Below are positions 4,655-29,926 of a stretch of DNA of 64,000 nt, piece by piece. The stretch covers positions 62,001 to 126,000 of the forward strand of contig NZ_FONW01000010.1 of NCBI RefSeq assembly GCF_900113005.1, read 5' to 3'. This DNA comes from Sunxiuqinia elliptica (lineage in GTDB: Bacteria > Bacteroidota > Bacteroidia > Bacteroidales > Prolixibacteraceae). The position numbers and the translations under genes were made by a program. Position 1 is the first letter of the stretch; the number at the start of each line of letters is the position of its first letter. Below the pieces are notes generated by a model that was not told where the DNA came from, did not search any database, and saw nothing but the letters and a program-made list of their open reading frames with translations.

Positions 4655-4666
4655 CGTTTCAATCAA

Positions 4667-8177: not shown

Positions 8178-8183
8178 AAATGT

Positions 8184-9340: not shown

Positions 9341-9395
9341 TAATCCCGTTTATATAGACAGGACACAAAATCAGGAGACAGGTATTACAACGCGA

Positions 9396-12832: not shown

Positions 12833-12844
12833 CAGGTACAGGAA

Positions 12845-12877: not shown

Positions 12878-12922
12878 AGCGAAGAGGAAAACTACAGTTC
12901 AAAAATCTAACGATCGATCATC

Positions 12923-13618: not shown

Positions 13619-14009
13619 ACTATGCCCTTGTGGCTCACAGCAAATGGCAGCCGACTGCTGCTTAGCGATCATCTCAGGAAAACGTCAGGCAGCCACCGCA
13701 CAGGAACTGATGCGATCCCGCTACGTTGCGTTTACCCAAGCAAACGGAGCTTACCTCATGCGAAGCCACCACCCCAAAACCAGACCGATAAAAGAACAAA
13801 AAGCCATTGAAAACTGGGCTAAATCCGTTCAATGGATGGGCTTACAAATTCTGAACACCCAAGGAGGTCAAGCCAACGATTCAAGCGGCTATGTGGAGTT
13901 TAAGGCACTCTACCTGGAAAACGGGCAACTGCAACAGATCCACGAGAACTCCTTTTTCAAAAAAGAACAAGGCCAGTGGCTTTATTATTCAGGGATACAC
14001 AAAGGGTAA
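13611..14009 (+). CDS. YchJ-like SEC-C motif protein (UPF0225)
   Basis: This small 132-residue protein has an N-terminal SEC-C zinc motif: Cys5-x-Cys7 and Cys16-Cys17, the C-x-C-x8-C-C spacing. The rest matches the YchJ/UPF0225 fold, with the typical LMRSRYVAF stretch (33-41), a THPKTR-like HHPKTRP segment and FKALY near residue 100. The beta-sheet domain resembles NTF2-like folds. The C-terminal Zn motif often found in longer YchJ proteins is absent, so this is the short form. The ATG at 13611 overlaps the end of the DUF2293 gene. Its role is unknown; SEC-C motifs bind zinc and, in SecA, contact ribosomes or SecB. Confidence 0.9.
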   Translation: MNKLCPCGSQQMAADCCLAIISGKRQAATAQELMRSRYVAFTQANGAYLMRSHHPKTRPIKEQKAIENWAKSVQWMGLQILNTQGGQANDSSGYVEFKALYLENGQLQQIHENSFFKKEQGQWLYYSGIHKG

Positions 14010-14033
14010 GCCCCATTCTGACTCTAACCCAAA

Positions 14034-14861
14034 TTACTTGACAACAAAAAACGGATTGAGCAAATTTTGCTTATTGTATTCGAGGGGAGTTCCGGTGTTA
14101 AGCTGATAAATGTTTTTCCCAGTCGCTTTAACGATAGCATGTCCGGCAGCGGTGTCCCATTCCATGGTTGGCCCAAAGCGCGGATAAATATCCGCTTTTC
14201 CTTCAGCAATCATACAAATTTTCAAAGAGCTCCCCCGGCTCAGCACCTCAATATTTGGATAGTCCTTCCTTAAGGTGTCAATAAAGTCCTTCGTTTCCTG
14301 ATTCATAAAAGACCGGCTGCCAACAACCGTATAAACAGACTGATCTTTAGCAATGGGCAACTTCAAACCCTGCTCTTTCATTTCAACAAAGCTGATGTCC
14401 GTCTTGTCTGTCTCCATTTTGTAGGCTCCCTCTCCCTGAACGCCCACATACAACTCTTGGGTAACCGGAACATAAATAACCCCGACAACAGGTGTTTGAT
14501 TTTGCATCAAAGCAATGTTAACCGTGAATTCCCCATTCCGATTTACAAACTCTTTAGTCCCATCAACAGGATCGACCAACCAAAAACAATCCCAATCTTT
14601 CCGCAACGGGTATTCGGGTTGCTGGTCTTCTTCACTCAACACAGGCACTCCGCTTTGTGTTAAAAGTTCCAAAATAATCCGATGCGAAGCTTTATCGGCC
14701 AGCGTTAACAGGCTACGATCAGCTTTTAACTCTACCCCAAACTCTCCTGACTTGTATATTCTCATAATTTCATGCCCCGCTTTAACTGCGGCATGAAGCG
14801 CTAGATCCATTCTTTCGACCAACTGGAGTCGACTTTTATGATCGTTTCCTTCAATATTCAT
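14034..14861 (-). CDS. cysQ: 3'(2'),5'-bisphosphate nucleotidase CysQ
   Basis: CysQ hydrolyses PAP, the by-product of PAPS-dependent sulfotransfer, to AMP, preventing product inhibition. This inositol-monophosphatase-fold protein is about 275 residues. The metal-binding signature DPVDGTKEFVNRNGEFTVNIALM is near residues 98-120. An upstream acidic cluster (SEEDQQ) and the C-terminal WDTAAGHAIVKATGK signature complete the site. I use the ATG at 14861; a GTG 12 bp upstream is also in frame. It follows cysC by 16-28 bp on the same strand, so they form an operon. The context with two sulfotransferase-like genes upstream fits a role in PAP clearance. It converges on the YchJ-like gene with only 24 bp between stops. 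Confidence 0.95.
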   Translation of the reverse strand: MNIEGNDHKSRLQLVERMDLALHAAVKAGHEIMRIYKSGEFGVELKADRSLLTLADKASHRIILELLTQSGVPVLSEEDQQPEYPLRKDWDCFWLVDPVDGTKEFVNRNGEFTVNIALMQNQTPVVGVIYVPVTQELYVGVQGEGAYKMETDKTDISFVEMKEQGLKLPIAKDQSVYTVVGSRSFMNQETKDFIDTLRKDYPNIEVLSRGSSLKICMIAEGKADIYPRFGPTMEWDTAAGHAIVKATGKNIYQLNTGTPLEYNKQNLLNPFFVVK

Positions 14862-14889
14862 CTTCAAACCCACTCTTTTAGTGTTCTAT

Positions 14890-15414
14890 TTAATCACGAA
14901 TATCTTTTAAAAGATGCTCCATGCACCCTTGTGTAGCTTCTTCGAGACTTAACGTTCCACAATCAATTGCCAATGCCATATTCCGTGGCTCCTCAAAAGG
15001 TGAGGTAATTCCTGTAAAGTTTGCAAGTTCACCAGCCTGCGCTTTTTTGTAATGTCCTTTGGTATCTCTCGCTGAGCACACCTCCAAGGGAGTTGACACA
15101 AACACCATCGTTAAGGCATGACCAATAATTTGATGCACCATTTCGCGTATTGCCTCAGTTGGAGTCACAAACGAACAAACAACCCAATACCCTTTACGCG
15201 CAAATAAGGCAGCTAATTCCGCTGCTCGCCTGATATTTTCCTGTCGGTCTGCAATTGAGAAGCCCAAATCTTTATTAATTCCCTTTCTTAACTCATCTCC
15301 ATCAAATGAAATTGTTTTGACTCCCAGAGCCAACAGCTCATTTTTAACGCTATTCGCTAAGCTTGTTTTTCCTGCACACGGTCTTCCAAAAAACCAAATA
15401 ACCTTTCCTTCCAT
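14890..15414 (-). CDS. cysC: Adenylyl-sulfate (APS) kinase CysC
   Basis: CysC phosphorylates APS to PAPS using ATP in the cytosol. This single-domain protein of 174 residues is the usual length. The P-loop is GRPCAGKTS (residues 10-18). The APS-binding DGDELRKGINKDLGFS and DRQENIRR segments (about 39-63) and the lid STPLEVCSARDTKGHYKKA are present. No ATP sulfurylase (cysD/cysN) or PAPS reductase lies in the window, so the APS supply must be coded elsewhere. The pairing with cysQ but not cysH suggests PAPS for sulfotransfer rather than for sulfide assimilation; that is inference. Confidence 0.95.
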   Translation of the reverse strand: MEGKVIWFFGRPCAGKTSLANSVKNELLALGVKTISFDGDELRKGINKDLGFSIADRQENIRRAAELAALFARKGYWVVCSFVTPTEAIREMVHQIIGHALTMVFVSTPLEVCSARDTKGHYKKAQAGELANFTGITSPFEEPRNMALAIDCGTLSLEEATQGCMEHLLKDIRD

Positions 15415-15788
15415 CTGTTTAAAATTAGAAACAAGACACTAGATTTTAGATATTAGTAGATGATCGGATATTCGGATGCTCGGAATTATGTGTACCCTTC
15501 ATTATGAATGTAATGAAGTTTGCCCTACTGGCAATAGGCCTTTTTTTAATGTTTCGAATCTCCATTTTTCCGTTCTCCAATTTAATCATTATCCTAGGAG
15601 TCAAAAAATCTTTGTCTTTGTTATTTTACATTTCCTATTCGTTAACAATAGTTCGTTGAGTTCCTTTTTTACAATCTTCTTATTTGCTAAACCATACAGT
15701 CCTACAACCCATTTTGACAAACCGTTTTTATCCAAGGTACTACAAATGTCTAACAGTCTAAAATCTGAAAATCTAACGATCTATTAAG
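15415..15788. repeat. Spacer cysC/chrA with inverted copies of a dispersed repeat
   Basis: No gene is convincing in these 374 bp. At 15421-15480 the minus strand carries TCCGAATATCCGAT, then AATCTAGTGTCTTG, the dispersed spacer repeat seen also before the SMP-30, SDR and dehydratase genes. At 15745-15785 the plus strand carries a run of GTCTAA / AATCTAA / AATCTGA words, so the two ends are related in inverted orientation (shared TTAGATTTTAGA-like core). The middle is T-rich on the plus strand with no visible promoter. Confidence 0.45.
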
Positions 15789-17015
15789 TTAAAACAAACT
15801 GAATAAAAGTATCCCTATCAATCCCGACAACGGAATAAGGTAGGCAACATTAACCTTTAATTTGATTGATAAAAACAACACTCCAATGAAAATTAACCAA
15901 GTTGCCCAATGCATTTCCATTCCTTTTCCTATGGTATAAGCTGCGGAAAAAATCATCCCGATAACCGCGGGACGCAATCCTTTAAAAATAGCTGAAATTA
16001 TTCTAGATTGCTTGATTTGATCCATAAATCCGGAACAAAAAATCATCAGAATAGCCGGGGGAAAGAAGATAGCAATGGTCGCTACCAAGGCACCCCAAAA
16101 GTTCGCAACCTTATAGCCAATAAAGGTTGCACTGATAAAAATTGGCCCCGGCGTAATTTGCCCCATCGCAATTGCATCGGTAAACTCCTTTGCTGTTACC
16201 CAATTAAGTCCTTCGACAACGATTTCATGAATAGCAGGAATAATCACGTACCCACCGCCAAATAAGGTGAGACTCATCCCCGAGAAAGTCATCGCAATAT
16301 CGCGAAGCAACAAGACCTGCGTAAAAGTAGCCTCCTTATGAAACAGCAAGGGAAATCCCCATACGAGTCCAACCAAAACGATTAGAACAACGACCACAGG
16401 CAAAAACGATCGGATGTTTTGCTTACTGGTCTTTTGGACCAATTCCGGCTCAGCTTTCTCCTCAACACCTTTCCCATAAAACAAAAGCCCCAGAATTGCG
16501 CCACCAGCCATAATCAACACGGTCGTGTAAAACGAACGGAAAAAAATCAACGCTAAACCCGAAAGTATAAGAATAACCAGCTGCAGCACGTCTTTCATAT
16601 TCTTCCGGGCCATGTTGAGGGCTACGCTAATAATGATTGCAGCTACGGCTGGCAACACGCCTAAAAAGAAATTGGTAAAAGCAGGAACTTCCTCATAAAT
16701 CGAATAGATGTAGGTTAGTCCCAAAATCAAGCTAAAAGCAGGCAGCAAAATGGCCACCATACTCACCAATGCTCCTTTTATTCCCCGCAAGTGAAATCCC
16801 AGGTAGGCAACCACATTGAAAGCCACGGGCCCCGGCAAAACCGATGCCAGCGAGATGCTGTCCAGAATCACTTCATCAGCCACCTTTTTATCTTTCTCAA
16901 CCAGTTGTTTTTGCACCACTGATATCAGCGCCATAAATCCGCCCCATGAGATCGCTCCAATTTTCAGGAAGGTGAGAAAAAGGTATTTTAACGAGGTCTC
17001 CTGATCTTTCTCCAT
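15789..17015 (-). CDS. ChrA-type (CHR family) transporter
   Basis: This 408-residue polytopic inner-membrane protein has two homologous CHR halves, the long-chain form. The first half has GAISWGGFMALISVVQ and SLASVLPGPVAFNVVAYLG (about residues 18-70). The second has LFGGGYVIIPAIHEIV and AIAMGQITPGPIFISATFIGY (about 235-290). Each half has about five to six hydrophobic segments. The known activity of characterised members is chromate efflux; chromate is a sulfate mimic, and at least one CHR member (SrpC of a cyanobacterium) is sulfur-regulated. Here it lies between an M1 peptidase and cysC-cysQ, so movement of sulfate or a related oxyanion is possible. The substrate cannot be decided from sequence. 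Confidence 0.9.
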   Translation of the reverse strand: MEKDQETSLKYLFLTFLKIGAISWGGFMALISVVQKQLVEKDKKVADEVILDSISLASVLPGPVAFNVVAYLGFHLRGIKGALVSMVAILLPAFSLILGLTYIYSIYEEVPAFTNFFLGVLPAVAAIIISVALNMARKNMKDVLQLVILILSGLALIFFRSFYTTVLIMAGGAILGLLFYGKGVEEKAEPELVQKTSKQNIRSFLPVVVVLIVLVGLVWGFPLLFHKEATFTQVLLLRDIAMTFSGMSLTLFGGGYVIIPAIHEIVVEGLNWVTAKEFTDAIAMGQITPGPIFISATFIGYKVANFWGALVATIAIFFPPAILMIFCSGFMDQIKQSRIISAIFKGLRPAVIGMIFSAAYTIGKGMEMHWATWLIFIGVLFLSIKLKVNVAYLIPLSGLIGILLFSLF

Positions 17016-17105
17016 ATGCTATTCGTTCAATATTCAAGTTTAAAATTTCAAAGAGTCAACCCTTTGCCTAGTCCTGTTTCTTTGCCTGAGCCTGCGCCTT
17101 ATTCC

Positions 17106-19346
17106 CTACTTCTCCACCTTAAAATAAATGTGCTCAATTTTTCGAGGCCAGTAATTGTTATTGGTATCAACATCGGCCGTTTCAAGGTATGGATCCAAGG
17201 TAACACTTTTAATTTTCTTAGTACACGTAAAAATCTTCGTTACTTCCTGATGGTTCTTTGTCCAAATTTCAACAGGGATACGCTGAATCTCCGTTGAGCC
17301 ATCTTCATATTCAAACTGAATAATTAAAGGCATCAACATACCTCCCAATGCTGAAAACGTAATCTCATAAAACTTTTGTTCCTGATTGAGCAACTCCCGT
17401 TCTTCAGCTGTCAGTCTCTCATTTAAGTTCCGGACCTCTGCCTGTAACTGGTCAGCCTCCGAAGAAGAAATACTGTCATAACGGTCTTTTAGCGCTTCGT
17501 CCAACTCAATGGCTGGCACATACTGCCCTTTATCCCGAATAGTTGCAATATGCCCCTGCTGCGAAGCTTTCTTCTCTTCAGCCAGCTTTCGGGCCTGCTC
17601 TTCGCCAACCAGAGGTTCATACAGCTTGACATTTTTTATCGCCAGGTCAACATGCTCAGTTGAAAAATACCATCCCCGCCAAAACCAATCAAGATCTACA
17701 CCTGATGCTGTTTCCATTATTCGAAAAAAATCGGCTGGTTGCGGATGTTTAAACTTCCACGTTTGTGCATACTCTTTAAAAGCCTGATCAAAAAGATCGC
17801 GGCCTAAGATTGTTTCGCGTAGGATGGTAAGTGCAACTGCAGGTTTTCGGTAACTATTCATGCCCGGCTGCAACAAAGCGTCAGCCTGAGTCATTATTGG
17901 TGTCAAAGTTCTTTTATCATCGTCCATGTAGCCAATCATTTCAACCGGCTGTCCCGACCACTTCCATTTCGGATTCCAATCACGCTCGGCAATTCCCTGT
18001 AGGAAAATGTTAAACCCCTCATCCATCCAAGCCCACTGTCGTTCGTCAGAATTGATAATCATTGGAAAATAATTGTGACCAACTTCATGATGCACCACCC
18101 CAATCACTCCCCTTTTCATTTGAGCAGTATAAGATTTATCCGCTTTAGGCTGTCCTTGATTAAAGCAAATCATCGGGTATTCCATTCCAGCAATTCCCTG
18201 TACATTCACTGAACTTGCCGTGGGATAGGGAAAATCAAACGTATAGTTAGAATAAATTTTAAGTGTGTGCGCAATTGACTTTGTCGAATATTTCTCCCAA
18301 AGCGGATTTGCCTCTTTGGGATAGAAGGACATGGCCAACACATCATTTTCAGAAAACTGAACAGCCATCGCGTCCCAAATAAACTTACGGGAACATGCAA
18401 AAGCAAAATCCCGTACATTTTGCGCGCTAAACTGCCATGTTTTAGTAGTCGAAGAATGGCTTTTTTCATTTGCCGATGCTTCCTCTTCGGTAATGATGAA
18501 AACTGGCGAACCGGATTTCCGAGCCTGTTGTAAGCGTTGTTGTTGTTCTGAGGTCAATACCTCTTTTTCATTTTTCAACTCTCCGGTTGCAGCAACAACA
18601 AAATCCGCAGGAACCGTAATTGCCACCTTGAAATCGCCAAACTCCAAGGCAAATTCAGAACCAACAAACTGTTTAATCTGCCATCCTAAATCATTAAAGA
18701 CACACAGTCGTGGATAAAATTGAGCTATTGCAAAAACATCCCCACTCCCATTTTCTGCTTCATTGTAGCCTGAACGCCCCCACATCTTCTGAATATTATT
18801 TAATTGATAGTGCCATGTCATTCGAAGTTTAGTTGATTTTCCGGGAAGCAAGGGTTTGCTCAGTATCACTTTCAGAATCGTATGATTCTTTACGATCTGT
18901 AAATCATGACCATTTTCATCCTGCACGGTATTGATTTTAAAACCACCATCAAAGTCCTGACTCAAGCGTTCTATTGTTTTCAGGTTGACGCTTTCAGACA
19001 GTTTCCCCCGCTCAATTTTACTTCGGAATGAATTTGGTTCACGAATATTCTGATCAAGTTGCAACCACAAGTAATTCAATACTTCGGGAGAGTTATTGTG
19101 ATAATGAATGATTGCCTCACCAGCCAAAGATTTAGCCTCTTCATCCAAGCTAACCGCCATGTCATAATCAACTTGTTGCTGAAAATAGGCTGGCCCCGGA
19201 TGCCCAGTAGCTGTTCGAAACTGGTTGGGAGTGGGTAACTCCTCAACCAGTTGTCTGAACCTATTTTCATTGGTATGCTGCTGTGCCAACACATTCAGCC
19301 CAAAAGCCAAAATGAAGGCACTTCCTAATAACCACTTTTGTATCAT
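17106..19346 (-). CDS. M1-family metallopeptidase, secreted
   Basis: This 746-residue protein has a signal peptide (residues 1-22, ending LAQ). The zinc site is HEVGH at 420-424, with the third ligand Glu443 18 residues later (WMDEGF), the M1 HExxH-x18-E pattern. The substrate-anchoring GMEYP stretch (about 387-391) replaces the GAMEN motif of typical aminopeptidases, as in many Bacteroidota M1 proteins. I use the ATG at 19346; the TTG before it abuts the upstream stop. The gap to the DUF6067 gene is 3 bp, so the two are co-transcribed and probably coupled. A peptidase inside a PUL suggests a glycoprotein or peptidoglycan-like substrate, which is inference. Confidence 0.93.
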   Translation of the reverse strand: MIQKWLLGSAFILAFGLNVLAQQHTNENRFRQLVEELPTPNQFRTATGHPGPAYFQQQVDYDMAVSLDEEAKSLAGEAIIHYHNNSPEVLNYLWLQLDQNIREPNSFRSKIERGKLSESVNLKTIERLSQDFDGGFKINTVQDENGHDLQIVKNHTILKVILSKPLLPGKSTKLRMTWHYQLNNIQKMWGRSGYNEAENGSGDVFAIAQFYPRLCVFNDLGWQIKQFVGSEFALEFGDFKVAITVPADFVVAATGELKNEKEVLTSEQQQRLQQARKSGSPVFIITEEEASANEKSHSSTTKTWQFSAQNVRDFAFACSRKFIWDAMAVQFSENDVLAMSFYPKEANPLWEKYSTKSIAHTLKIYSNYTFDFPYPTASSVNVQGIAGMEYPMICFNQGQPKADKSYTAQMKRGVIGVVHHEVGHNYFPMIINSDERQWAWMDEGFNIFLQGIAERDWNPKWKWSGQPVEMIGYMDDDKRTLTPIMTQADALLQPGMNSYRKPAVALTILRETILGRDLFDQAFKEYAQTWKFKHPQPADFFRIMETASGVDLDWFWRGWYFSTEHVDLAIKNVKLYEPLVGEEQARKLAEEKKASQQGHIATIRDKGQYVPAIELDEALKDRYDSISSSEADQLQAEVRNLNERLTAEERELLNQEQKFYEITFSALGGMLMPLIIQFEYEDGSTEIQRIPVEIWTKNHQEVTKIFTCTKKIKSVTLDPYLETADVDTNNNYWPRKIEHIYFKVEK

Positions 19347-19349
19347 CAA

Positions 19350-22300
19350 CTATTCCTTTTCGCGAACGACAATTAAAAAGCCTTTTCCCTGAGGCACCAC
19401 AATCCGGTCGTTAGGCATCCAGCTTTTCTCCTGCTGAAAACCATCAATTGCCGGTGCATACAGCTCTGCATTCGCCTGATCGATCCCAATTGCGTCCCAG
19501 TCAATTTTCAGTTTAACAGCGTCATCCTTTTTAGCCCATGTTGCCAAAGCAATAAGCATTTGTTTTCCTTTGCGTACATAAGCTGTTGCATAAGTATCTT
19601 TGCTATTCACTTTCACGGGGTTGTTGGAATCCCAATAACCAATCATTTCACTCTCTTCAATTTTGAAATCATCCCACGCGTTCCAAAGCGGCGTAACATT
19701 AACTCTTGGCGCCCGGCCTGTCATTCCAAAGACCATTCCCCGCCACGGATTGCCTCCATCCTGCAACATTTCACCCATCAAACCATAGGGAATCCCCGAG
19801 GTTTCAATCAGCCAAAAGTCGGGGGGCAAATTATAGTCGAAGTACTCGCCAAACCATAGCCTGTCGATGAATGGGAAATGTTCCAGGTATAAGTTTGCAC
19901 TATTGGCAAATCCATCGCGCGGATTAAACTGATTAGCCGAGTGCAGATCGATAAGTGCCCCAGGATTTCCCCGCTCCAACACTTTTCGAATGCGCTTCAT
20001 GGAAGTCCGGTCAAAAGCCAAGTCATCAATATAAACCCCATCGATGCCAACATTGGTTACCAGCCAGTTTAAACCTTCGATGTAGAAGTTGTGCCAACGC
20101 GAAATGCCTGTATTCACCAAAGCAGCATCTTTTATTGACGGAACAAACCAAGCGGCAATGTAATTGGAATCCAGGTGTTCCTGCAACCAGGAAAAACCGC
20201 CTCCATTACCGTTGGAGAAAATTTCATCGCCCAAACTTCGAAGCATAAACAATTCCGGGGCTTTGTTAGTCAATTCCCTTACGGTATAGTAAATCTTCAC
20301 TTTCGCATCTTTATCGTGCGCTTCATCAATGTAAGCTTTCATTCTTTCAGGAATGAAGAATGGGTAGTTGATAAACGAATTGATTTTATTCGCGTGATGA
20401 AGGTTGATGGTATTTGCACCATGAGCCAAAGCTGTATCAACAGGCTGAGAGCTGTGATAGTAACGATTATGCCAATGTTTATTGGTATCAATCGGGCGGA
20501 ATGGCGTAATCAATAAGTTGAAGTAGTAATGCAATTGGTCTCCTTTTTTCACCTTGCGCTTTCCTGAATATGAATTTAGCAGTACTGATCCACTTTTTTC
20601 AGAGGTGATGTTGATTCCTCCTTTTCCCTCATTATACCACGAATCGGGCATGTACAGCGGCTTATCCTGATAAAAATTGGTATTCAAAGGGCGTGCATAA
20701 TGATTATCCGTAAAACGGGCCTGAAGTCCAGCATTGACAGTTCCAATCCATGGGCCATCCTGATTTTTCTCCACAGCCCACTTCCATTTGATGTTTTCGT
20801 CTCGAAAGCCACCTTTATAGCCCAAACCCATCATGTATTTGGCTGCTGCTTGCTGATAAGGGATCTCCAACCGAATATCATTCAGCTCCATATCTTTTGT
20901 TGCTGTCAGCACCAGTTGATAATTGATGTTTCCATCAAACTCCATCTGCGCCTTACCTTCCAGTTCAAATCCGGGCATCTCATTTTGTAGTTCCCAGGCT
21001 ATAGCTCCCTCTTTTTGTTTGATCAGCTTAAATGATGGCTTGGTCCATTTTGAAGTTCCCTCAGCAGTTTCTACAACCAGCTTTACGGGAGCTGCCAGCA
21101 GTTCTTTTCCTGAACCCTGAATTTTGGTAACACTTTCAGAAAAATAGCTCTGAATACTTTCAGGAAAACCATCTTCACCAAAGGCCACTTGACGTCCCAA
21201 ACATTTTACCGTATTCCCATCGAGTTCGAGAGCTGAATATGGAGCTACAATTCCGTCATCCTCTGCAATTCTTGAATTTAACCAGCGCAAACGAGACAAA
21301 CGTTCCGGCTCATTATCGCCCGCAGCCAATACTGCAACCTCCGAAATAGCCAACTTAAGCGTCACTTGTTGTTCAGCCATTTGCTTTGGCTTTACCGTAA
21401 TCACGGCTTCATACTCTCCGGCTTCAATCTCCAAAGGAATCTGCAGGCCAATCCACAAAGCTTGAACCTGTCCTTTCGCAACCGAGCATACTTTTGCAAA
21501 TGGCTTTCCTTCCCAATCAATTCCTTCCGTATTAAAACAGGTAAATTCACCTGCCTCAACAACTGGTGTCCCACGATGATTGAGACTGGAAAACTCCACT
21601 TTTATATCCTCAATTGCGTTCTGCGCTGCAAAACATCCAAGTTGAAAGGTAAAATATTCCCCTTTTAAGGCTTTTGCTGAGAACTGATTGCTTACACCAT
21701 CCTGAATCCATTTAAAGGGCAAATCCTTCGTCATTCGAATGGAGTTTTCCCTTGTTTCAGGGAAAAGCAGGTAATCGGTATCACCATGCTCCTTCAGAAG
21801 TTGGCTTACTTCATTTTGAGTAGCAATTACTTCCATCGGATAAAACGAATTAAAAGGATCAATCGACTGAAACTGCACCAACTCAGCTTTCGGTTGTGCC
21901 CCCAAGTCTTTCGATGTCGCTTTTGCTTCTTTCAACCAAGTCGGTTCTGCCTCATTTGAAAGCTTAGGGTAAGTCACTTTCGGGTAGTTACTCCTCCCGT
22001 GTTGCTGATATTTTAAGTAGTAGATGTAGTACTCACCTGGTACTGTTTGAGGCTGAAAAAGAATATCCCCAAATTCACGGTTAACCGCTACGGGATAGTT
22101 ATTCTTCACCATCTTATTGGTGGTCGCATCAACAACAATGATCGATTTATTTTCTGGTTGAGCATCCCTCCTTCGCCAAGGAATATGCGCCCAAACCAAG
22201 TCCGTATTGTCGTAAACTTTTACAACGACCCGATGATTTCCGAGCGAGTCTGCGTCCCAATCTCCAACTCCGTATAAATCTGGGCTTGGGACTATATTGT

Positions 22301-22364
22301 CTTGTGTCCTTCCTACAAATAAGAAAAGACACACTATTGAAAGTGTCAAAATCAATTGTTTCAT
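19350..22364 (-). CDS. DUF6067-like putative glycoside hydrolase, secreted
   Basis: This 1004-residue protein has a signal peptide (about 1-20). The N-terminal ~450 residues are beta-rich. The middle and C-terminal part reads like a (beta/alpha)8 barrel: INLHHANKINSFINYPFF, VKIYYTVRELTN, NWLVTNVGIDGVYIDDLAFDR (near residue 760), ALIDLHSANQFNP, and WFGEYFDYN. A small C-terminal beta-domain follows. The GVYIDDLAFD element is where clan-D-like glycosidases carry a catalytic Asp, so Asp residues there are candidates. I match it to the DUF6067 (GH123-N-like) group by memory of sequence style; no search was run. It is tightly linked to the M1 peptidase and follows the DUF5107-TPR gene by 177 bp. 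Confidence 0.75.
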   Translation of the reverse strand: MKQLILTLSIVCLFLFVGRTQDNIVPSPDLYGVGDWDADSLGNHRVVVKVYDNTDLVWAHIPWRRRDAQPENKSIIVVDATTNKMVKNNYPVAVNREFGDILFQPQTVPGEYYIYYLKYQQHGRSNYPKVTYPKLSNEAEPTWLKEAKATSKDLGAQPKAELVQFQSIDPFNSFYPMEVIATQNEVSQLLKEHGDTDYLLFPETRENSIRMTKDLPFKWIQDGVSNQFSAKALKGEYFTFQLGCFAAQNAIEDIKVEFSSLNHRGTPVVEAGEFTCFNTEGIDWEGKPFAKVCSVAKGQVQALWIGLQIPLEIEAGEYEAVITVKPKQMAEQQVTLKLAISEVAVLAAGDNEPERLSRLRWLNSRIAEDDGIVAPYSALELDGNTVKCLGRQVAFGEDGFPESIQSYFSESVTKIQGSGKELLAAPVKLVVETAEGTSKWTKPSFKLIKQKEGAIAWELQNEMPGFELEGKAQMEFDGNINYQLVLTATKDMELNDIRLEIPYQQAAAKYMMGLGYKGGFRDENIKWKWAVEKNQDGPWIGTVNAGLQARFTDNHYARPLNTNFYQDKPLYMPDSWYNEGKGGINITSEKSGSVLLNSYSGKRKVKKGDQLHYYFNLLITPFRPIDTNKHWHNRYYHSSQPVDTALAHGANTINLHHANKINSFINYPFFIPERMKAYIDEAHDKDAKVKIYYTVRELTNKAPELFMLRSLGDEIFSNGNGGGFSWLQEHLDSNYIAAWFVPSIKDAALVNTGISRWHNFYIEGLNWLVTNVGIDGVYIDDLAFDRTSMKRIRKVLERGNPGALIDLHSANQFNPRDGFANSANLYLEHFPFIDRLWFGEYFDYNLPPDFWLIETSGIPYGLMGEMLQDGGNPWRGMVFGMTGRAPRVNVTPLWNAWDDFKIEESEMIGYWDSNNPVKVNSKDTYATAYVRKGKQMLIALATWAKKDDAVKLKIDWDAIGIDQANAELYAPAIDGFQQEKSWMPNDRIVVPQGKGFLIVVREKE

Positions 22365-22541
22365 CTCATTAAAATTGTTTATTTCATTTGCATTCGATGT
22401 AACTCACGATGAATTTTAATATGCTTGTTTGTGAATTTTCACATCTTAAAATTCATGTTCGTTTCATAATGTATTTGTTTAGTCCGATTGTGTTATAAAT
22501 GATGTTCCATTCCGGATCATCTGATCATGCAAAAAGCGCTA

Positions 22542-25500
22542 TTAAAGACCTTTCATTTCTGAAATGGCCACAATTAATCCAAATTCCGGATTCTTACTTC
22601 TGGGGTTAAACAATGTTCCTCCACGCTCCTGTACAATCTCTTGCAGAATGTGCTCAGCTTCGGTCGATTGATCATTTAGCATGGCGTAAGACCAAGTAAT
22701 CAATTTGTTGTCTGGCTCTTTGGTGCTCCAGGTTTGAAGAAAACTTGCAGCGTCCTGATCTTTCCCTTGTTTTTTTAGAAGCAGCGCCCCTAAATAATGG
22801 CTGGGAGAAAATTTGCTTGCGTTTAATGAATAGTCAATAACCTTCGCTTCCAATTCGCTCGCTTTATTCTTATCGCCATTTACTGTCCAATAGATGCTTT
22901 CCAAGAAGTCTTCAATCCGCTCATCGGTATCGTAAGGTTTACCAACGCCCAAGTTTTCGGGCCATTCCCGGGCTTGCTCCAAACGCGAAAGGGCTCGTTT
23001 GTTTATTTTACTTTCCATCAGCTTTAGCGCATCCATAATACAAGCCTGGCGGTAGGTAATTCGTCCTGCACTGGCCCCCTCATTTGGAAGAATGGTTGTT
23101 TTTGCCAGTACATCTAAGGATTTCTCATACGCTCCGTTAATCAACAGGTCTTTTGCCTTTTGAAACGCCAGCACATAGCTATCCGGAAACTTCTTAGCGC
23201 CGTCAACAGCCCAATCCAATGCTTTTTCGAACTGCTGTTGCGATTCGTAATAGTTTGATAAGGCCAGGTAGCAACGCCACTCTTCTTTATTTAACTCCCA
23301 GGCTTTCAACAAATCTTGTTCACTGTTATAAGCAGAGTCGCTATTAAGCAGGTTAAAACGGGTCAGGTAAAAAGCAAAATAATCGGGCTGGTTGCCACAT
23401 TCAATAAATCGTTGCCGGGCACTCGTTTCATTTCCTTTAAACCATTCAATTAGACCCAAATAATATTGTGTTTTCCAACCTTCCTGCTGCGTCAAAGCCC
23501 ATTTCAAAACTTCAGCAGTCTCGCTTCGGAAAGGATAAACCAAGTAGGGAGAAGCTTCAATCGCCCGGTCAAGAATGCCAGTATCACCGGATAACCATGC
23601 CAACCAATAATTCCCGACAGCATTGGGTTCAACTTTTTGTAGGATGTGGATTGCCTTATCGTTCAAGCCCAAATTAGCATAAGCAATCGCTTGCTCCAAA
23701 CAGATTTCCTGCGGCATTTCATAATTCAAAGCTTTCTCCAGCCCAGCTCCTTTTTCAAAAAGGGCAAATGCACTGAATGGATCAATGGTAAGGATATCAT
23801 CCAATACGGCATTCCGCTTTGCCTGGTCTCCTTTTTCATTTAGGCAGAGCGCCTTCAACTCTAAAGCATTGATGTTATTTCGATTATAAACCAATGCTTC
23901 GTTGGCGTATCTCAACGACTTGTTGATTTCTCCATCTTTGAAAAATATTGCAGCTAAATGGGTATAAGCTACCGAGCGATATTCCATAGACCGGGCCGCT
24001 AAACTAAAAGCATCCAAAGCATCATACTTTTGATTCAACTTCAAACTCGTTAAACCGAAAATATAATTGGCTTCTGCGTGGTAGGTATCATTCGATAAGG
24101 CTTTCAAGGCATAATTAGCAGCAGTTTCATAATCCATTTTCCGATACTGCAGGCCAGCCATTTTCACCAATGCACCTGTATGAAACGGATTTTGCAGAAG
24201 TACCTCCCGGTATTTATTTTCCGCTCCTTTGTAATCTCGTTGTTTCTCCACTTCCACAGCTGCCGTATAAATAGCATCTGGAGTATTCCAGTCAAATTCA
24301 TCTGCTATTTTCACTGGTTTCGATAGTACCCGCTCCTTACCTTCCAGGGTGCTATAACTCATTAAGCCGCCAATTTTCACTTCAATATTGGCCGCTCCTG
24401 TTTCAAACGACAAGATAGTAGCCTCCGTTGGTTGCAGGTCAATTTTCTTCCGGCCAATTTCCTTGCCATCTCCCAACACAACTAATTCTTCGGAAACGGA
24501 TTGGTTGGCACAAAAACCGATTTTTACGGCACCTGACTTTTGCTCAACATTCAGCGATCCATATTCATTGGCTTTCACCATTCCGCCAATTTGCTTGACC
24601 GGAAACCACAGCTCTGTAAATTGATGTTCAGCACCAGCTTCAAAGAATAAATGCTTGTAGGGCGTTTCAGCACTTTTTGCCGCAGCCTGGTTAAACAACA
24701 AGCCCGTTTGAATTTCTGAATACTGAATATTCCCTGGATCGGTTAGCAGATCTGTCCAGATAGCTCCTTCACGGGAAAGTGCCCACATCCAGATCTTCTG
24801 TCCCGGTTTTTCATCGTATGGCGACCAATGTCCCAAGCCAAAGTCCTTATCACGGAAATAACACAGAAAGTGTTCAGCATACTCACCTAAAACATGGTAA
24901 GATTTGGGACCACCAAAGTTGTTGTTTTTATACTTCGAGATATCGATGCCCTTGTCACTGACTGGCCAGGGAGTCACTTCTCCCCCATGCCCAATTTCAA
25001 CGTTCCCTGGGAAATAGTACTCCAAATCCTCCGAAGCATCTACCGAGGCAGTCATCCAATTATAAAGTGAGGTGTTTTGATCGGATGGATTGTACCAAAT
25101 AGCTTTGGTTTCAAAGTAGGATTTATCAGGAGCCAAACGAATCTCAACCCGCCATTCGGTGCGAGAGGTAATATCAGGAGCACCGACAAAGCAACTCACG
25201 CTCCCATCTTCATTTTCCTTCAAAAGATAGTTTACCGGAGAAGCTGTGGTGGGTGCATGTCCAATCGATCCGAAGTTAAATTCTATCCCGCCGGAAGTCC
25301 AGGCTCCACGCATGGCAATATCCCGAAACTTAACAACTTTATTGAAATAGATGAATTCCTCGCCTGTCGATTTATCAATCGCTCCAAGCACTTTACCTCC
25401 AATTTCCGGAGCAACCAACACTTTAATGTACTTATTTTCGAGCGTAACTAGCTTCCACTGCTGTGTTTGTGGCGTATTGGTAAACCCGTCAAAACGATAA

Positions 25501-25661
25501 TATGGATAGTATCTTGTAGGCTGTGCAACCGGATCCGGATCAGCGTACGGGTAGGTTTTGAAACTTACCATTTCCTCGGATATGGAGGCTTTTTGAGCCC
25601 AAACAGACTGCCAGCACAAGAACATAATCACAAGAAAAATAGGTCTTATTTGTAATTTCAT
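22542..25661 (-). CDS. DUF5107 protein with long TPR array, secreted
   Basis: I use the ATG at 25661 (about 1039 residues), which starts a clean signal peptide ending WAQ; upstream codons in the open frame look non-coding. Residues about 30-370 match DUF5107: LENKYIKVLVAPEIGGKVLGAIDKSTG, AMRGAWTSGGIEFNFGSIGHAP, and YNWMTASVDASEDLEYYFPG. This fold resembles aldose-epimerase-like beta-sandwiches that bind sugars. From about 490 on there are many TPR-like helix pairs (AENKYREVLLQNPFHTGALVKMAGLQYRKMDYETAANYALKAL and others). It may be a glycan-binding or catalytic protein on a scaffold; no activity is established to my knowledge. It is 96 bp after the sulfotransferase gene. Confidence 0.8.
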   Translation of the reverse strand: MKLQIRPIFLVIMFLCWQSVWAQKASISEEMVSFKTYPYADPDPVAQPTRYYPYYRFDGFTNTPQTQQWKLVTLENKYIKVLVAPEIGGKVLGAIDKSTGEEFIYFNKVVKFRDIAMRGAWTSGGIEFNFGSIGHAPTTASPVNYLLKENEDGSVSCFVGAPDITSRTEWRVEIRLAPDKSYFETKAIWYNPSDQNTSLYNWMTASVDASEDLEYYFPGNVEIGHGGEVTPWPVSDKGIDISKYKNNNFGGPKSYHVLGEYAEHFLCYFRDKDFGLGHWSPYDEKPGQKIWMWALSREGAIWTDLLTDPGNIQYSEIQTGLLFNQAAAKSAETPYKHLFFEAGAEHQFTELWFPVKQIGGMVKANEYGSLNVEQKSGAVKIGFCANQSVSEELVVLGDGKEIGRKKIDLQPTEATILSFETGAANIEVKIGGLMSYSTLEGKERVLSKPVKIADEFDWNTPDAIYTAAVEVEKQRDYKGAENKYREVLLQNPFHTGALVKMAGLQYRKMDYETAANYALKALSNDTYHAEANYIFGLTSLKLNQKYDALDAFSLAARSMEYRSVAYTHLAAIFFKDGEINKSLRYANEALVYNRNNINALELKALCLNEKGDQAKRNAVLDDILTIDPFSAFALFEKGAGLEKALNYEMPQEICLEQAIAYANLGLNDKAIHILQKVEPNAVGNYWLAWLSGDTGILDRAIEASPYLVYPFRSETAEVLKWALTQQEGWKTQYYLGLIEWFKGNETSARQRFIECGNQPDYFAFYLTRFNLLNSDSAYNSEQDLLKAWELNKEEWRCYLALSNYYESQQQFEKALDWAVDGAKKFPDSYVLAFQKAKDLLINGAYEKSLDVLAKTTILPNEGASAGRITYRQACIMDALKLMESKINKRALSRLEQAREWPENLGVGKPYDTDERIEDFLESIYWTVNGDKNKASELEAKVIDYSLNASKFSPSHYLGALLLKKQGKDQDAASFLQTWSTKEPDNKLITWSYAMLNDQSTEAEHILQEIVQERGGTLFNPRSKNPEFGLIVAISEMKGL

Positions 25662-25757
25662 AGTAGGTCGTTTAGTTAGTTTATAAATGAAGTAGTCGTT
25701 ACAAGTAATCAAGATTGCTGCCGCGAAACGCTGTTCGCTCCAAGCAGCAAATCAGCC

Positions 25758-26780
25758 TTACAAGGCAACAAGCTCTTGCTTTCGGATACTTCTGAGTAGC
25801 TCTTCCTGTGGTTGTCTCAATTTCATCCCCTCAGGATCAACAGCCAAAGAAGCTTCCTGTTTCAGGCGGTTATTTTCCAAATTAAACTTGCTCAACTCGG
25901 CCTTTGAAAAAGGAGCACTACCAAATATTCCATTATTCTCCAATGCGTAATTCAGTGCAAGAAGCATGTTTCCTGCTTGCTTTTCAAAAATGGCAATGTC
26001 CAACGCTGAAAGCTCTTTCTGGTATTTTTTGGAATTCCCTTTCAAAATAGGTTTAGAGACATTCGCCCACATCTGGCCAGCACCAGCGGTATTTTTTGAT
26101 TCTTCAGATTTGTAAAAGTCAAAAACTGCCGGATTAAACGGAAGCCCCAAGAATGAACTTATCCGCTTCATCTCTTTTTCAGGCGACTCAATCAAGTCTT
26201 CGTAACTGACTTGAATAAAGCGCTCTGCTCCAACCTGGCTTTTCAATGCCAGGCATGCCTCTTGATTTCGAGCCCATTGTTTGGCGATATGATAAACGTG
26301 CTTTTCACCGACGATGGCCTTTCTAAATGAGCAGGCGACATCTCGCCCATCCCGGAACAGGTGAATGTATCGAGGGCGAATACCTGCCACTTCCAACTCT
26401 TCGGCATATTGAATATTGGCCATGCTCTTACAGGCCCAAAAAGAAGCCTGATCATTCCCTGCTTTCAAATCATAAATAACACGAAAGAGCTCAAACAAGC
26501 TGTTGCTTTTACACTGCGCAATCAATTGTCCCCGGTTCAACTCAATCCCTGTCCAAACAACAGGATTTCGCTCTACCAAGGTACACACATCATTCGTCAG
26601 CCGCCAAAAATTTGCCTCTTCTTGCAAGTTCCCATAAAAAGGTAATAAAGGCATGAGCCGTTGCAGAATATGAGGTGGATGTGGAGCTGTTATTTCTTCA
26701 AATTGATTAAGCATCAACCGCAACAGGTTTGAACCTGAACGTTGAGTTCCTATAATTTGTATGGGTTGAATTCGTGCCAT
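25758..26780 (-). CDS. PAPS-dependent sulfotransferase family protein
   Basis: This 340-residue cytosolic protein shows the two PAPS-binding elements of the sulfotransferase family. The 5'-phosphosulfate loop GTQRSGSNLLRLML is at 11-24. The 3'-phosphate motif RYIHLFRDGRDVACSF lies near 135-150. The acceptor is unknown; the sequence is closer to carbohydrate/protein sulfotransferases (Sulfotransfer_1/3 type) than to the ASST fold. It has no signal peptide, so it should work in the cytosol on a precursor, unlike the secreted neighbours. It starts 20 bp after the ASST-like gene. PAPS for it could come from the nearby cysC. A sulfotransferase inside a SusCD locus is unusual, since PULs normally carry sulfatases. 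Confidence 0.9.
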   Translation of the reverse strand: MARIQPIQIIGTQRSGSNLLRLMLNQFEEITAPHPPHILQRLMPLLPFYGNLQEEANFWRLTNDVCTLVERNPVVWTGIELNRGQLIAQCKSNSLFELFRVIYDLKAGNDQASFWACKSMANIQYAEELEVAGIRPRYIHLFRDGRDVACSFRKAIVGEKHVYHIAKQWARNQEACLALKSQVGAERFIQVSYEDLIESPEKEMKRISSFLGLPFNPAVFDFYKSEESKNTAGAGQMWANVSKPILKGNSKKYQKELSALDIAIFEKQAGNMLLALNYALENNGIFGSAPFSKAELSKFNLENNRLKQEASLAVDPEGMKLRQPQEELLRSIRKQELVAL

Positions 26781-26800
26781 TTTGCAATCTCTTTATTCGT

Positions 26801-28291
26801 TTATTCTTGGGTAAAATAATTGTTCCAACACGAGGCAGGGAGATACTCCATCCGATATGGAACATAGGGAGAATCCAGTTCCCACAAAATTTCACCCGCT
26901 CTGTCTGTAATGAGTACTGAACCTGTCTTTGAGCTTGTCTGCAATAGGTTACCATTGTCAAGCAAGTAAGCATTGCCCATCCGAGAAGTATATTTCTCAG
27001 TGGGCAATGGAGCATTTATTTTAGTGGTAGCAGTCATCGTTAGCGTATCGAGTTTAAAGGAAAGAGCACGCGACTCCTCTCGGAACAGGTTATTATCAAA
27101 CAACATATAGTCGCCTTCAGCATTTACATGGATGGCATGTTGAAAAGAAAACAAAGCGGATGGATCCATCTTGAAGTCACCATTCTTCCCAAATTTCCAC
27201 ATGACTTCTCCTGTTTGGGCATTCACTTTCCAAATTTGATCTTCCATAGCTACTGAGAGTAAATAGTTTCCATCCCGATCAAAGTTCAGTGCATTCATAT
27301 GAAAGCGGTCATAACCAAACTCATCCAGTAAGCTGTCTTTTTCCAAATCCCAATGATCCCAAACGGACCACTTCCAGATTTCATTTCCCAATGTATCCAG
27401 CACGACAATACCATCTCCGACAAGAGTATCCCTAACACTTTGGCCGTCCACTTCGTGCGAATAAAGTTTTTCAGTACGATATAAGGTGTGGATATTGTTG
27501 TTCTCATCCATGCGAATATCATGATGAATCAAATCTTTCTCAACCTTACCTTGTAACGATGTTCGCCAGCGGATTTTTCCGGTCAGGTCGATTTCTGCCA
27601 TTGCCGTTCCTCCGGCAAAGCCAATCTTCCCTCGTCGCATAGGCTTTTGTATTTCTTCCAGAATTTTTCGATGCTCTTTCGGTTTGTCGTCAATAACATC
27701 CTTTTTGGGCGGCCGAAGCATCGCTAAAATAGTTCCTCGTGGCGTTAATGTTGCGGCACGAACACCGATGTCATCGACCTGCCAATGCCAGCGAATGGCT
27801 CCCTGATGATCAACCAGCGCAATATATCCCGGCATGCGGGCATAGCAAATCATTAACAGGCCATCGCCAAAAGCTTCGGGATCATGCGGGCGGCTATCCA
27901 ACATCCAGTTAATATCCAACCATGGCGATTGCTCACGTGTTTGAAAAGAAAGAACTTTCGAATTTGAATTGATGTAACGATCAATAACAACCTGATATTC
28001 ATATTCCGAATTTGTATCGAGCAGCAATAAATCCACACTATGCTTAATGGCTTTTGCTGTTGGTTTAGTTCGATATTTCTCTTGCTCTCCTTTTTTCCAA
28101 TAACGCACATAAAGGCTAGCTGGCCTACTCAACTCAACATCTACTTTCTCTTGAAAAGCATAATTATGAGGAGACGTAAGCTTGATGCTCTTAATTGAAA
28201 TGCTTTGTACGTACCAGATCCTAAAAGCCCCAATAAGAATTACCAGAAAAACAACTCCAGCGCCAATCCAAATTCTATTTTTTCGTTTCAT
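26801..28291 (-). CDS. Arylsulfotransferase (ASST)-family protein, membrane-anchored
   Basis: This 496-residue protein has an N-terminal membrane anchor (residues 7-24, basic MKRKNR before it), so the rest lies in the periplasm. Residues 40-120 look like a small beta-sandwich. A six-bladed propeller follows, with blade motifs GAIRWHWQVDD, GKIRWRTSL, GNEIWKWSVWDHWD and GEVMWKFGKNGDF. Conserved His of the family are seen: HHD at 256-258, HxN at 331-333 (FHMNAL), and QH at 384-385. Characterised ASSTs move sulfate from aryl sulfates to phenols without PAPS. The catalytic Arg expected about 16 residues after HxN is not evident here (SVAMEDQ), so activity may differ. It follows susD by 111 bp. Confidence 0.85.
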   Translation of the reverse strand: MKRKNRIWIGAGVVFLVILIGAFRIWYVQSISIKSIKLTSPHNYAFQEKVDVELSRPASLYVRYWKKGEQEKYRTKPTAKAIKHSVDLLLLDTNSEYEYQVVIDRYINSNSKVLSFQTREQSPWLDINWMLDSRPHDPEAFGDGLLMICYARMPGYIALVDHQGAIRWHWQVDDIGVRAATLTPRGTILAMLRPPKKDVIDDKPKEHRKILEEIQKPMRRGKIGFAGGTAMAEIDLTGKIRWRTSLQGKVEKDLIHHDIRMDENNNIHTLYRTEKLYSHEVDGQSVRDTLVGDGIVVLDTLGNEIWKWSVWDHWDLEKDSLLDEFGYDRFHMNALNFDRDGNYLLSVAMEDQIWKVNAQTGEVMWKFGKNGDFKMDPSALFSFQHAIHVNAEGDYMLFDNNLFREESRALSFKLDTLTMTATTKINAPLPTEKYTSRMGNAYLLDNGNLLQTSSKTGSVLITDRAGEILWELDSPYVPYRMEYLPASCWNNYFTQE

Positions 28292-28402
28292 CCAACTATA
28301 TTGTCAATAAATACTCGTTTCAGTGTTTCCAAGAATAACCGTCGAAATCGTTATTCCGACAGCTATTCTATGCTAAACTTAACTCTCTCAATCGCTATTA
28401 AC

Positions 28403-29926
28403 CTATGGTAGCCTGTTCAAATTTTCAGATGCCATATTGCTATTAAGCTGTGCATCAACCAGTGGGTATGGGAATAATCTCATACTTTCTCTCACAACTG
28501 GCGACATCCCTCTATATTCCAAGTAAGTGTTACAGATCTCTTCGTATTTTCCAAAACGGATTAAGTCTGGACGCCTTTTGTACTCAAAAACGAGTTCATA
28601 ACCGCGCTCGGCCAAGATTTTGTCTGCCATTTCTTCCTTATCCGTTGGTTCTGGGAATCCAGGATCGCCATACTCCGGAGCACCTGCTCTAGCCCGCACT
28701 TCATTCAAATAAGGAAGTGCTGCTTGTGGTCCGCTCAACTCATTCTCAATCTCAGCTTTACAAAGGATTGCATCAGCCAAACGGAAAACCGGAATTGTTC
28801 GTCCATCGTAGTAGGAAGGATCAACCATTTCGTAAGAGTACTTTTTGGTGGCCACATTCTGCAACAATTTTATCGTATCGCTTGGAGGCACGGTTTGTCC
28901 TTCATCTGGCATCATATAGTAAAAACCATTTGTCGTTGACTGATCCCGAGGCGAACGTCCTTCGTAATTGTAGTAGAAGAATTCTTTTCGAGGATCGGCA
29001 TCATCGTAATTTCTCCAGAAATAAAGCGAAACAGCATAGTACTGCCACTTAGCCATATCCGGATGGTCACGAGGGCCAAAGTGGTTGGTGATTTCACCTC
29101 CGTTTTGTGAAGCCTCATGCAAAATACAGAAGATCATTCCTCCATCCTTTTTATTGCTTTCCGACCAAACATCTTTAAAATCCGGATTCAATTGATACAC
29201 TCCTTCGCTTCTTAGCTGAAGCACCATATCGATGTATGTTTTTGCATTGGCATAGTCATGAGCACGCATATAGACTTTTCCTAAAAGCATGGCTGCAGCA
29301 CCTTTCGTTGCTCTTGACAATCCTTCTTCCAAGGTCCAGCTTTTAGGTAGATTATCAATCGCGTATTTACAATCCTCAATAATCTGTTCATCCACAACAC
29401 TCACTGGCGACAGCGGCATATCATAAGTTTCTGAAGGATTGATGACCTCTACAATTAAAGGAACTGGTCCCCAAGCGTCCGTTGCATCGCGATAAGCCAA
29501 TGCTCTTAAAAAGCGAGCCTGAGCAATCACCTGTTTCTTTTTTGTCTCATCCATTTCTACCGCTTCAATCTTATTGATCAGCATATTGGCATTACTAATG
29601 ACCTCAAACATGTAGCGCCAATTGTATTTAAAATAGCGGTTATTGGCATCATAAGTAAAGTTACTAAGCTTGGTGGGGTCTCCCGCCGCTGTTGAAAAAC
29701 CAATATCAGTCGTATAGTCAGTAGTCATGATCAAATAGCCGTTGTAATACATCCAGCCATCACCCGGGAAGGGAGCCAGGTCAGCATACACTCCAACCAA
29801 AGCTGCATTAATGTCGCTTTCGGTAGAATAAGCATTCGATGTTGTTAAGTCGCTATACATTTCCGGTTCCAAGTCTGTACAACTCGCGACAAAAACCAGA
29901 GCTAATAGTATTATTATATTTCTCAT
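28403..29926 (-). CDS. SusD/RagB-family lipoprotein (PUL2)
   Basis: This 507-residue surface glycan-binding partner of the SusC just upstream has a lipoprotein signal ending at Cys16 (VFVASC). The start CTDLEPEMYSDLTTSNAYST is SusD-like. TPR-like helices include FLRALAYRDATDAWGPVPLI, which is the conserved FLRA-Y...WG-VPL element. The C-terminal domain has ILAERGYELVFEYKRRPDLIRFGKY. It follows susC by 39 bp. The normal size contrasts with the large PUL1 SusD. The ligand is unknown; downstream genes suggest a sulfated or protein-linked glycan, which is inference. Confidence 0.95.
   Translation of the reverse strand: MRNIIILLALVFVASCTDLEPEMYSDLTTSNAYSTESDINAALVGVYADLAPFPGDGWMYYNGYLIMTTDYTTDIGFSTAAGDPTKLSNFTYDANNRYFKYNWRYMFEVISNANMLINKIEAVEMDETKKKQVIAQARFLRALAYRDATDAWGPVPLIVEVINPSETYDMPLSPVSVVDEQIIEDCKYAIDNLPKSWTLEEGLSRATKGAAAMLLGKVYMRAHDYANAKTYIDMVLQLRSEGVYQLNPDFKDVWSESNKKDGGMIFCILHEASQNGGEITNHFGPRDHPDMAKWQYYAVSLYFWRNYDDADPRKEFFYYNYEGRSPRDQSTTNGFYYMMPDEGQTVPPSDTIKLLQNVATKKYSYEMVDPSYYDGRTIPVFRLADAILCKAEIENELSGPQAALPYLNEVRARAGAPEYGDPGFPEPTDKEEMADKILAERGYELVFEYKRRPDLIRFGKYEEICNTYLEYRGMSPVVRESMRLFPYPLVDAQLNSNMASENLNRLP

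Follow-up and report, generated by a model that had tools for sequence, protein, structure and literature searches.

In caprazamycin biosynthesis, according to the accessible parts of the two sources, the PAPS-dependent sulfotransferase Cpz8 (PAPS, 3'-phosphoadenosine 5'-phosphosulfate) makes a phenolic sulfate that is the donor for the PAPS-independent arylsulfate sulfotransferase (ASST) Cpz4, which sulfates the aminoribose moiety (PMC4257720, PMC6731281). In more than 40 years, according to the available part of a 2026 review, bacterial aryl sulfotransferases have not been matched to any natural substrate; the review also notes the role of Cpz4 in antibiotic synthesis (PMC13426309). Here we describe a locus of the bacteroidete Sunxiuqinia elliptica (contig NZ_FONW01000010.1, positions 62,001–126,000, a stretch of 64,000 nucleotides that we call the window) in which genes for an ASST-like protein, a PAPS-dependent sulfotransferase (SULT), and a ChrA-family transporter lie on one strand with a susCD pair.

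Like Cpz8/Cpz4, this locus has a PAPS sulfotransferase and an ASST in one cluster. The caprazamycin genes, however, belong to a Streptomyces antibiotic cluster with a triketide pyrone carrier, and the accessible text mentions no ChrA, SusCD, glycoside hydrolase (GH), or peptidase partners; moreover, a relay is described there, whereas for the window locus it is a proposal, and a scan of 40 window proteins named no type III polyketide synthase. The Bacteroides cholesterol-sulfate cluster BT_0411–BT_0416 resembles the locus in that a PAPS sulfotransferase has genes for PAPS synthesis and a proposed importer of sulfate next to it (PMC9417993), but ChrA, ASST, and SusCD are not mentioned in the available text. 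AssT of Escherichia coli CFT073 (EcAssT), which occurs with DsbL/DsbI, shares the ASST fold and the aligned residues His252, His356, Asn358, and His436, but the window locus has no named Dsb genes, and its protein has no equivalent of Arg374, carries a putative N-terminal anchor, and is only weakly similar (profile E 7e-7). Polysaccharide utilization loci (PULs) controlled by an extracytoplasmic function (ECF) sigma factor and FecR have the same SusC with an STN domain, SusD, ECF, FecR, and GH-like protein, but the window locus also carries genes that would add sulfate. The gene set combines known kinds (PUL, PAPS-sulfation cluster, two-step sulfation) in a combination that we did not find described among the literature matches listed, which leave subscription papers largely outside their coverage; an initial annotation, made from the sequence alone, had likewise known of no PUL with this set. 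The two listed papers that mention both sulfotransferase and chromate transport draw no link between them in their accessible text.

Conservation of SULT and ChrA

Patterns derived from three family members were run against genome contigs and yielded 142 SULT relatives. The best 80 (L063–L142) were kept, so the loci are the nearest relatives rather than a random draw, and several share one genus. With L059 from a sample of the order added, and L058 dropped as lying on the same contig as L104, the set comprises 81 loci (54 Bacteroidota and 27 others) in four phyla: Bacteroidota, Pseudomonadota, Nitrospirota, and Cyanobacteriota. Neighbors were called by tblastn with the window proteins. ChrA, which the initial annotation had overlooked, is the most constant SULT partner: chrA lies near the SULT gene in 73 of the 81 loci (46/54 Bacteroidota, 27/27 others), at most 300 bp away in 67, and on the same strand in all 70 loci where both open reading frames (ORFs) were called. 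The eight loci without it are L064, L093, L109, L120, L128, L134, L137, and L139; the L064 contig stops short of the site where L063 has chrA (seen via L214, on the same contig). The Bacteroidota loci also contain ASST (39), SusC (36), SusD (35), cysC (22), DUF6067 (20), cysQ (16), DUF5107 (13), and M1 peptidase (5) genes, and the 27 others contain cysC (9) and cysQ (4), with ASST and SusCD in none. Early contig ends are common, so all these counts are lower bounds. As a control, 27 other sulfotransferase loci from the order sample (L031–L057, some sharing a contig and some truncated by contig ends) had no chrA, cysC, cysQ, or ASST within 1.5 kb; the SULT family trimmed to the same 1.5 kb has chrA in 68/81.

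The arrangement itself is also conserved. SusC-SusD-ASST-chrA-SULT are strictly consecutive on one strand in 22 of the 54 Bacteroidota loci; hence a gene order unique to this genome, which the initial annotation had named as one of two cases against its proposal, did not occur. Draconibacterium aestuarii (L063) has an order identical to that of the window from ECF to chrA, with 67–92% protein identity for SusC through chrA and 31–33% for FecR and ECF. Because of this identical order and of long conserved runs in many genera, we rejected a chance arrangement or an assembly artifact. In a sample of the phylum, one further locus (L188, genome G197) has SusC, an unassigned ORF in the SusD position, a 318-aa ORF, chrA, SULT, and ASST in one run. 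SULT and ChrA distances correlate (r 0.82, 71 loci), a value that, like the hypergeometric ones, ignores shared ancestry, and neither is used as proof. The recurrence of a SULT-ChrA core in very distant bacteria suggests a dedicated sulfation system.

The family is sparsely distributed. A close SULT relative (at least 44% identity) was found in 3 of 149 genomes of the order sample and a match at E 1e-50 or better in 3 of 395 genomes of the phylum sample, the S. elliptica genome included in both; one of the three in the phylum sample (G475, 36% identity), with no chrA within the 18 kb read, was not counted as an orthologue. A phage collection contained no relative at E 1e-5. Among the relatives are those of the human-associated Parabacteroides gordonii and P. 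massiliensis.

ChrA passes the PF02417 and TIGR00937 models of the CHR superfamily of chromate efflux transporters, but the window protein does not group with ChrAs of chromate-resistance loci. In a tree, 72 SULT-linked ChrAs all fall on one side of a single branch (support 100/99; 200/200 bootstrap trees), with 12 unlinked ones outside, including three from plasmids, two of which adjoin chrB-type genes. Program warnings concerned long branches (L190, L059, L129) and five rows whose composition differed. Since the linked ChrAs were collected via SULT, the tree alone cannot show that the clade needs SULT. Unlike chromate-resistance loci of this superfamily, the window locus has no chrB, none having been named among the locus proteins in Pfam and NCBIfam scans, and its ChrA is not known to move chromate. 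A Foldseek search with a structure model of this ChrA (mean predicted local distance difference test score, pLDDT, 86.5) found nothing at E 1e-3 or better, and the fold thus offers no clue to the cargo.

Outside Bacteroidota the module takes compact forms. The cysC match lies within a protein of ~600 aa in five Pseudomonadota and Nitrospirota loci, and the one scanned (L098) joins ATP sulfurylase to adenosine 5'-phosphosulfate (APS) kinase. On two conjugative plasmids of Serratia, both from a single river site (L176, positions 8997–15038, and L177), lies a compact sulfation run annotated as sulfate adenylyltransferase/APS kinase, TauE/SafE, SULT (44.9%), CysQ, and ChrA (41%); of 45 plasmid records, no others have a SULT match exceeding 32% identity. 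An IS30 transposase gene lies downstream of the run and, by eye, transposase-like ORFs upstream, with no acceptor-making gene within it. As a separate observation, neighbor clusters of 11 and 7 non-Bacteroidota loci (among L094–L133) have as scanned representative a PF12974 phosphonate-type substrate-binding protein, and another cluster of 11 loci a chemotaxis receptor; these proteins may sense a product or substrate.

The sulfotransferases and their partners

Judged by domain and motifs, the window SULT is a PAPS-dependent sulfotransferase. It contains a Sulfotransfer domain, and across 36 aligned rows G11, Q13–L19, R143, and S151 are invariant and T12 and L20 almost so; we take these residues to represent the 5'-PSB and 3'-PB motifs. 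A further motif, KA[IV]VGEKH..YH[IL]A[KR]QW, marks the family. The PAPS motif starts at residue 10, leaving no room for a signal peptide, and the nearest solved structures are CurM and TPST.

The nearest solved relatives of the ASST-like protein are 9kf4 (E 3.6e-17) and 9kf6 (E 1.3e-16). In a profile of 19 members, H256, H331-x-N333, and H385 align with H252, H356-x-N358, and H436 of EcAssT (3elq), residues listed for the active site in the accessible part of the review (PMC13426309); 4p04 has an Asn opposite H385/H436. All four positions are kept in 38 of the 38 rows that reach them (the truncated row L097 was set aside), and Thr462 is almost constant in the family. Judged by eye, the N-terminus contains a hydrophobic segment, and several relatives have a lipobox-like Cys. 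Among 140 genomes of the S. elliptica family, an ASST-like member scoring at least 396 bits occurs in nine, including seven of the eight with SULT; G627, a fragmented assembly, and G653 have it without SULT, and G635 carries one more copy, in a SusCD locus where the stretch read shows no SULT.

The recurrence of PAPS supply genes is variable. Both cysC and cysQ recur beside SULT, but in fewer than half of the Bacteroidota loci (22 and 16 of 54), and D. aestuarii has no match to either in its 21 kb locus or in the ~12.7 kb past chrA. A CysC P-loop GRPC[AS]GKT is common to seven SULT-adjacent relatives (L065–L068, L070, L078, L081) and absent from the other 22 linked CysC rows. On another contig of the S. 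elliptica genome (5.09 Mb, 26 contigs), a further APS kinase match lies in a 637-aa ORF, so the CysC of the locus is an extra copy; the 637-aa ORF adjoins a PAPS_reduct-domain (CysD-like) protein and a CitMHS/Na_sulph_symp permease. The genome also has 36 sulfatase (PF00884) matches. None falls inside the window, which bears out the earlier remark that it is free of sulfatases; the nearest (C3:60002–61132) lies ~870 bp left of the window edge. With the genome this rich in sulfatases and a sulfatase beside the module in a relative (L067), the description of the locus as carrying sulfotransferases "instead of sulfatases" was too strong.

Several partners may concern glycans or glycopeptides. The DUF6067 protein carries the GH123 family name but has no assigned CAZy class, and its fold matches (GH31, GH2, GH123) are of low confidence on a poor model (pLDDT 66). 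The HEVGH...E columns of the M1 peptidase are conserved (6 rows), and an alternative ATG at 25661 would give the DUF5107-TPR protein a signal-peptide-like N-terminus. GH20 hexosaminidases occur in the loci of relatives (L058, L067, L069, L075), together with a GH123-catalytic-domain match barely over the cut-off in L058, a glucosamine-6-phosphate isomerase domain in L075, and a fucosidase beside the sulfatase of L067. The GH123 name of the DUF6067 protein, the GH20, GH123, isomerase, and fucosidase neighbors, and the M1 peptidase point to N-acetylhexosamine-containing glycans or glycopeptides as the predicted substrate of the locus.

Layout of the locus and its surroundings

Pfam places ECF sigma, FecR, SusC, SusD, ASST-like, SULT, DUF5107-TPR, DUF6067, M1, ChrA, CysC, and CysQ in this order at 14034–35176, all on the minus strand (Table 1). 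The ASST-like and SULT tandem downstream of susCD reported in the initial annotation was recovered with Pfam scores above the cut-offs, and cysC and cysQ further along the same strand were recognized by both Pfam and NCBIfam (TIGR00455 and TIGR01331 over their cut-offs); its list was correct for the genes it named and lacked the M1 peptidase as well as ChrA. SusC and SusD are adjacent, as in PULs, and the STN domain of SusC scores barely over the Pfam cut-off. Neighboring ORFs are 0–177 bp apart, except for 374 bp between chrA and cysC. A promoter and terminator scan of 13900–28500 found no more sites than in shuffled sequences, so the scan cannot tell whether cysC-cysQ form a separate unit.

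Table 1. Genes of the sulfotransferase locus, with positions in the window.
Feature	Position	Strand	Evidence
ECF sigma factor	34601-35176	-	Pfam Sigma70_r2/r4_2
FecR anti-sigma factor	33491-34510	-	Pfam FecR, FecR_C
SusC-type TonB-dependent transporter, N-terminal STN signaling domain	29966-33343	-	Pfam STN, Plug, CarbopepD_reg_2; TIGR04056 924 bits
SusD-type surface lipoprotein	28403-29926	-	Pfam SusD_RagB, SusD-like_3
ASST-like protein (PAPS-independent sulfotransferase fold)	26801-28291	-	PF05935 98 bits (cut-off 24); PF14269 84
PAPS-dependent sulfotransferase (SULT), by domain and motifs	25758-26780	-	PF13469 Sulfotransfer_3 92.5 bits (cut-off 27)
DUF5107 + TPR protein	22542-25712	-	PF17128 418 bits
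DUF6067/GH123_N family, glycoside-hydrolase-like	19350-22364	-	PF19543 1407 bits
M1-type zinc peptidase	17106-19349	-	PF01433; HEVGH...E kept
ChrA-family transporter, SULT-linked clade	15789-17015	-	PF02417 268 bits; TIGR00937 228 (cut-off 172); tree
CysC, APS kinase (makes PAPS)	14890-15414	-	PF01583; TIGR00455 172 (cut-off 139); P-loop GRPCAGKT
CysQ, 3'(2'),5'-bisphosphate nucleotidase (removes 3'-phosphoadenosine 5'-phosphate, PAP)	14034-14861	-	PF00459; TIGR01331 266 (cut-off 229); PDB 3b8b E 3e-87

The window contains two further SusCD loci. The first (1736–9989) has ECF, FecR, SusCD, and GH16 genes, with sulfatase and GH2-like genes just left of the window. The third (35476–53838) has RhaT, SusCD, SGL, SDR, MR_MLE, RraA, two GH2, AraC, and a fucosidase gene, and perhaps encodes a non-phosphorylating deoxysugar pathway. 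An RteC-like gene, a resolvase, and tRNA-Arg lie in close proximity at 53974–57166 and are perhaps the remains of an integrated element. A single ORF at 61351–62418 has both IspA (septation protein A) and NUDIX matches, a fusion that seems unusual.

Possible roles of the locus

We tentatively read the locus as a conserved sulfuryl-transfer module (ChrA and SULT, often with CysC and CysQ) set in a SusCD locus beside ECF/FecR and working as a two-step relay like that of Cpz8 and Cpz4. The gene identities, their conservation, the linkage of SULT to one ChrA clade, and the ASST catalytic residues are observed; we infer the reactions, the carrier, and the cargo and direction of ChrA. CysC would make PAPS and CysQ would clear PAP, while the SULT, in the cytosol, would use PAPS to sulfate a small carrier with a hydroxyl group, probably a phenol. 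A sulfate species would next cross the inner membrane through ChrA. In the periplasm the ASST-like protein, predicted to be membrane-anchored, would load sulfate on its histidine and pass it to a hydroxyl of a glycan or glycopeptide handled by SusCD, DUF6067, and M1. The specific form of this proposal, a trans-envelope relay in which SULT loads the carrier, the dedicated ChrA clade exports a sulfate ester or sulfate, and the periplasmic ASST uses the exported ester on glycans, is rather doubtful.

The relay is favored by the constancy of chrA near SULT, with none at the control loci, by the single clade of linked ChrAs, by the frequent ASST beside SULT in Bacteroidota and in the family genomes, by the ASST active-site residues, by the early PAPS motif of SULT, by the compact Serratia run, and by the caprazamycin precedent. 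A number of results weigh against it. Arg374 of EcAssT is replaced in the window protein by Ala348 or Met349 (the 9kf4 and 3elq alignments are offset by one column), and only 7 of 38 ASST-like family members have Arg at position 348. Two loci (L227, L228) have an ASST-like gene directly after SusD, and the stretch read there shows neither SULT nor ChrA. None of the 27 non-Bacteroidota loci has ASST, so a periplasmic ASST step is not part of the core module. The cysC and cysQ genes often lie outside the SULT locus, and no enzyme for a phenolic carrier was named among the 40 scanned proteins. Finally, the ChrA scores of the 140 family genomes are bimodal (at least 513 bits in 14, at most 224 in the rest), with SULT in eight and SULT plus a clade-level ChrA in seven; the other seven genomes with clade-level ChrA gave no SULT match at E 1e-40, and a repeat search at E 0.001 found none either. 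In three of these assemblies the contig ends at most 150 bp downstream of chrA, and in four 458 to 5294 bp are readable without SULT; since the laxer search also found none, the result stands for these assemblies, with contig ends as its limit. SULT goes with ChrA more than ChrA goes with SULT, and, because half of the genomes with clade-level ChrA have no detectable SULT, the clade seems to have a role without it. These SULT-less ChrAs (L207–L213) lie beside a run of N-acetylglucosamine 2-epimerase-family and SSF symporter genes (scanned in L209) or after genes resembling the DUF3857 genes of L065.

A plainer explanation, which we grade as nearly as likely as the two-step relay and still on the unlikely side, is that the clade ChrA imports sulfate to feed CysC, PAPS, and SULT, that SULT acts in the cytosol, sulfating a glycan fragment or aglycone that the cell has taken up, and that the ASST-like protein acts separately in the periplasm, with no relay. 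Cells usually possess other sulfate importers, and characterized ChrAs export chromate. In this genome the permease adjoins the CysD-like and 637-aa APS-kinase ORFs, the Serratia module has TauE/SafE as well, and ChrA is more constant with SULT than CysC and CysQ are, all of which tell against import. On the other hand, a general supply step would be expected in genomes without detectable SULT, where the clade ChrA does occur. According to the available parts of the sources, the Bacteroides cholesterol-sulfate cluster has its own proposed sulfate importer, BT_0412, beside PAPS genes (PMC9417993), and in Synechocystis the chrA gene slr1457 is close in locus number to the sulfate transport genes slr1452–1453, all of which fall under ethylene (PMC6508509).

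We consider it improbable that the ASST-like protein substitutes for a sulfatase, removing sulfate from sulfated glycans as they come in and passing it to water or a phenol, with ChrA-SULT as a separate module that uses the sulfate. In one donor study, cited in the accessible part of the review, aryl but not alkyl sulfates could act as donors (PMC13426309). The genome is, besides, already rich in sulfatases. Such a role would nevertheless fit the ASST-like genes that follow SusD directly in loci without SULT, the GH20 hexosaminidases of relatives, and the one relative with a sulfatase and a fucosidase.

Slightly less probable is a detoxification system in which SULT conjugates a toxic phenol or aglycone freed by the hydrolases of the locus and ChrA exports the sulfate ester. 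The efflux function of the kin of ChrA and the compact version on conjugative Serratia plasmids, near transposase genes and with no acceptor-making gene in the run, speak for it; the predicted periplasmic ASST and the SusCD setting with GH-like and peptidase genes would go unexplained, and no toxic acceptor is known. That these are chromate or oxyanion resistance genes lying by chance beside sulfur genes is very improbable: ChrA passes the NCBI chromate efflux transporter model, but the tree sets the linked ChrAs apart from the 12 unlinked ones with their chrB-adjoining plasmid members, the scans of the locus proteins named no chrB, and the linkage to SULT spans four phyla.

Taken together, the overall interpretation of the initial annotation, that the locus adds or moves sulfate, is partly supported. 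By placing an ASST next to a PAPS sulfotransferase and a transporter, the conserved locus offers a concrete candidate for an ASST donor, a subclade of "chromate transporters" is tied to sulfation in four phyla, and the plasmids offer a compact sulfation cassette for study. If the relay is true, it would provide the long-missing natural ASST donor and give part of the ChrA family a new function, across four phyla and plasmids, and SusCD loci of Bacteroidota would serve to sulfate glycans, not only to desulfate them.

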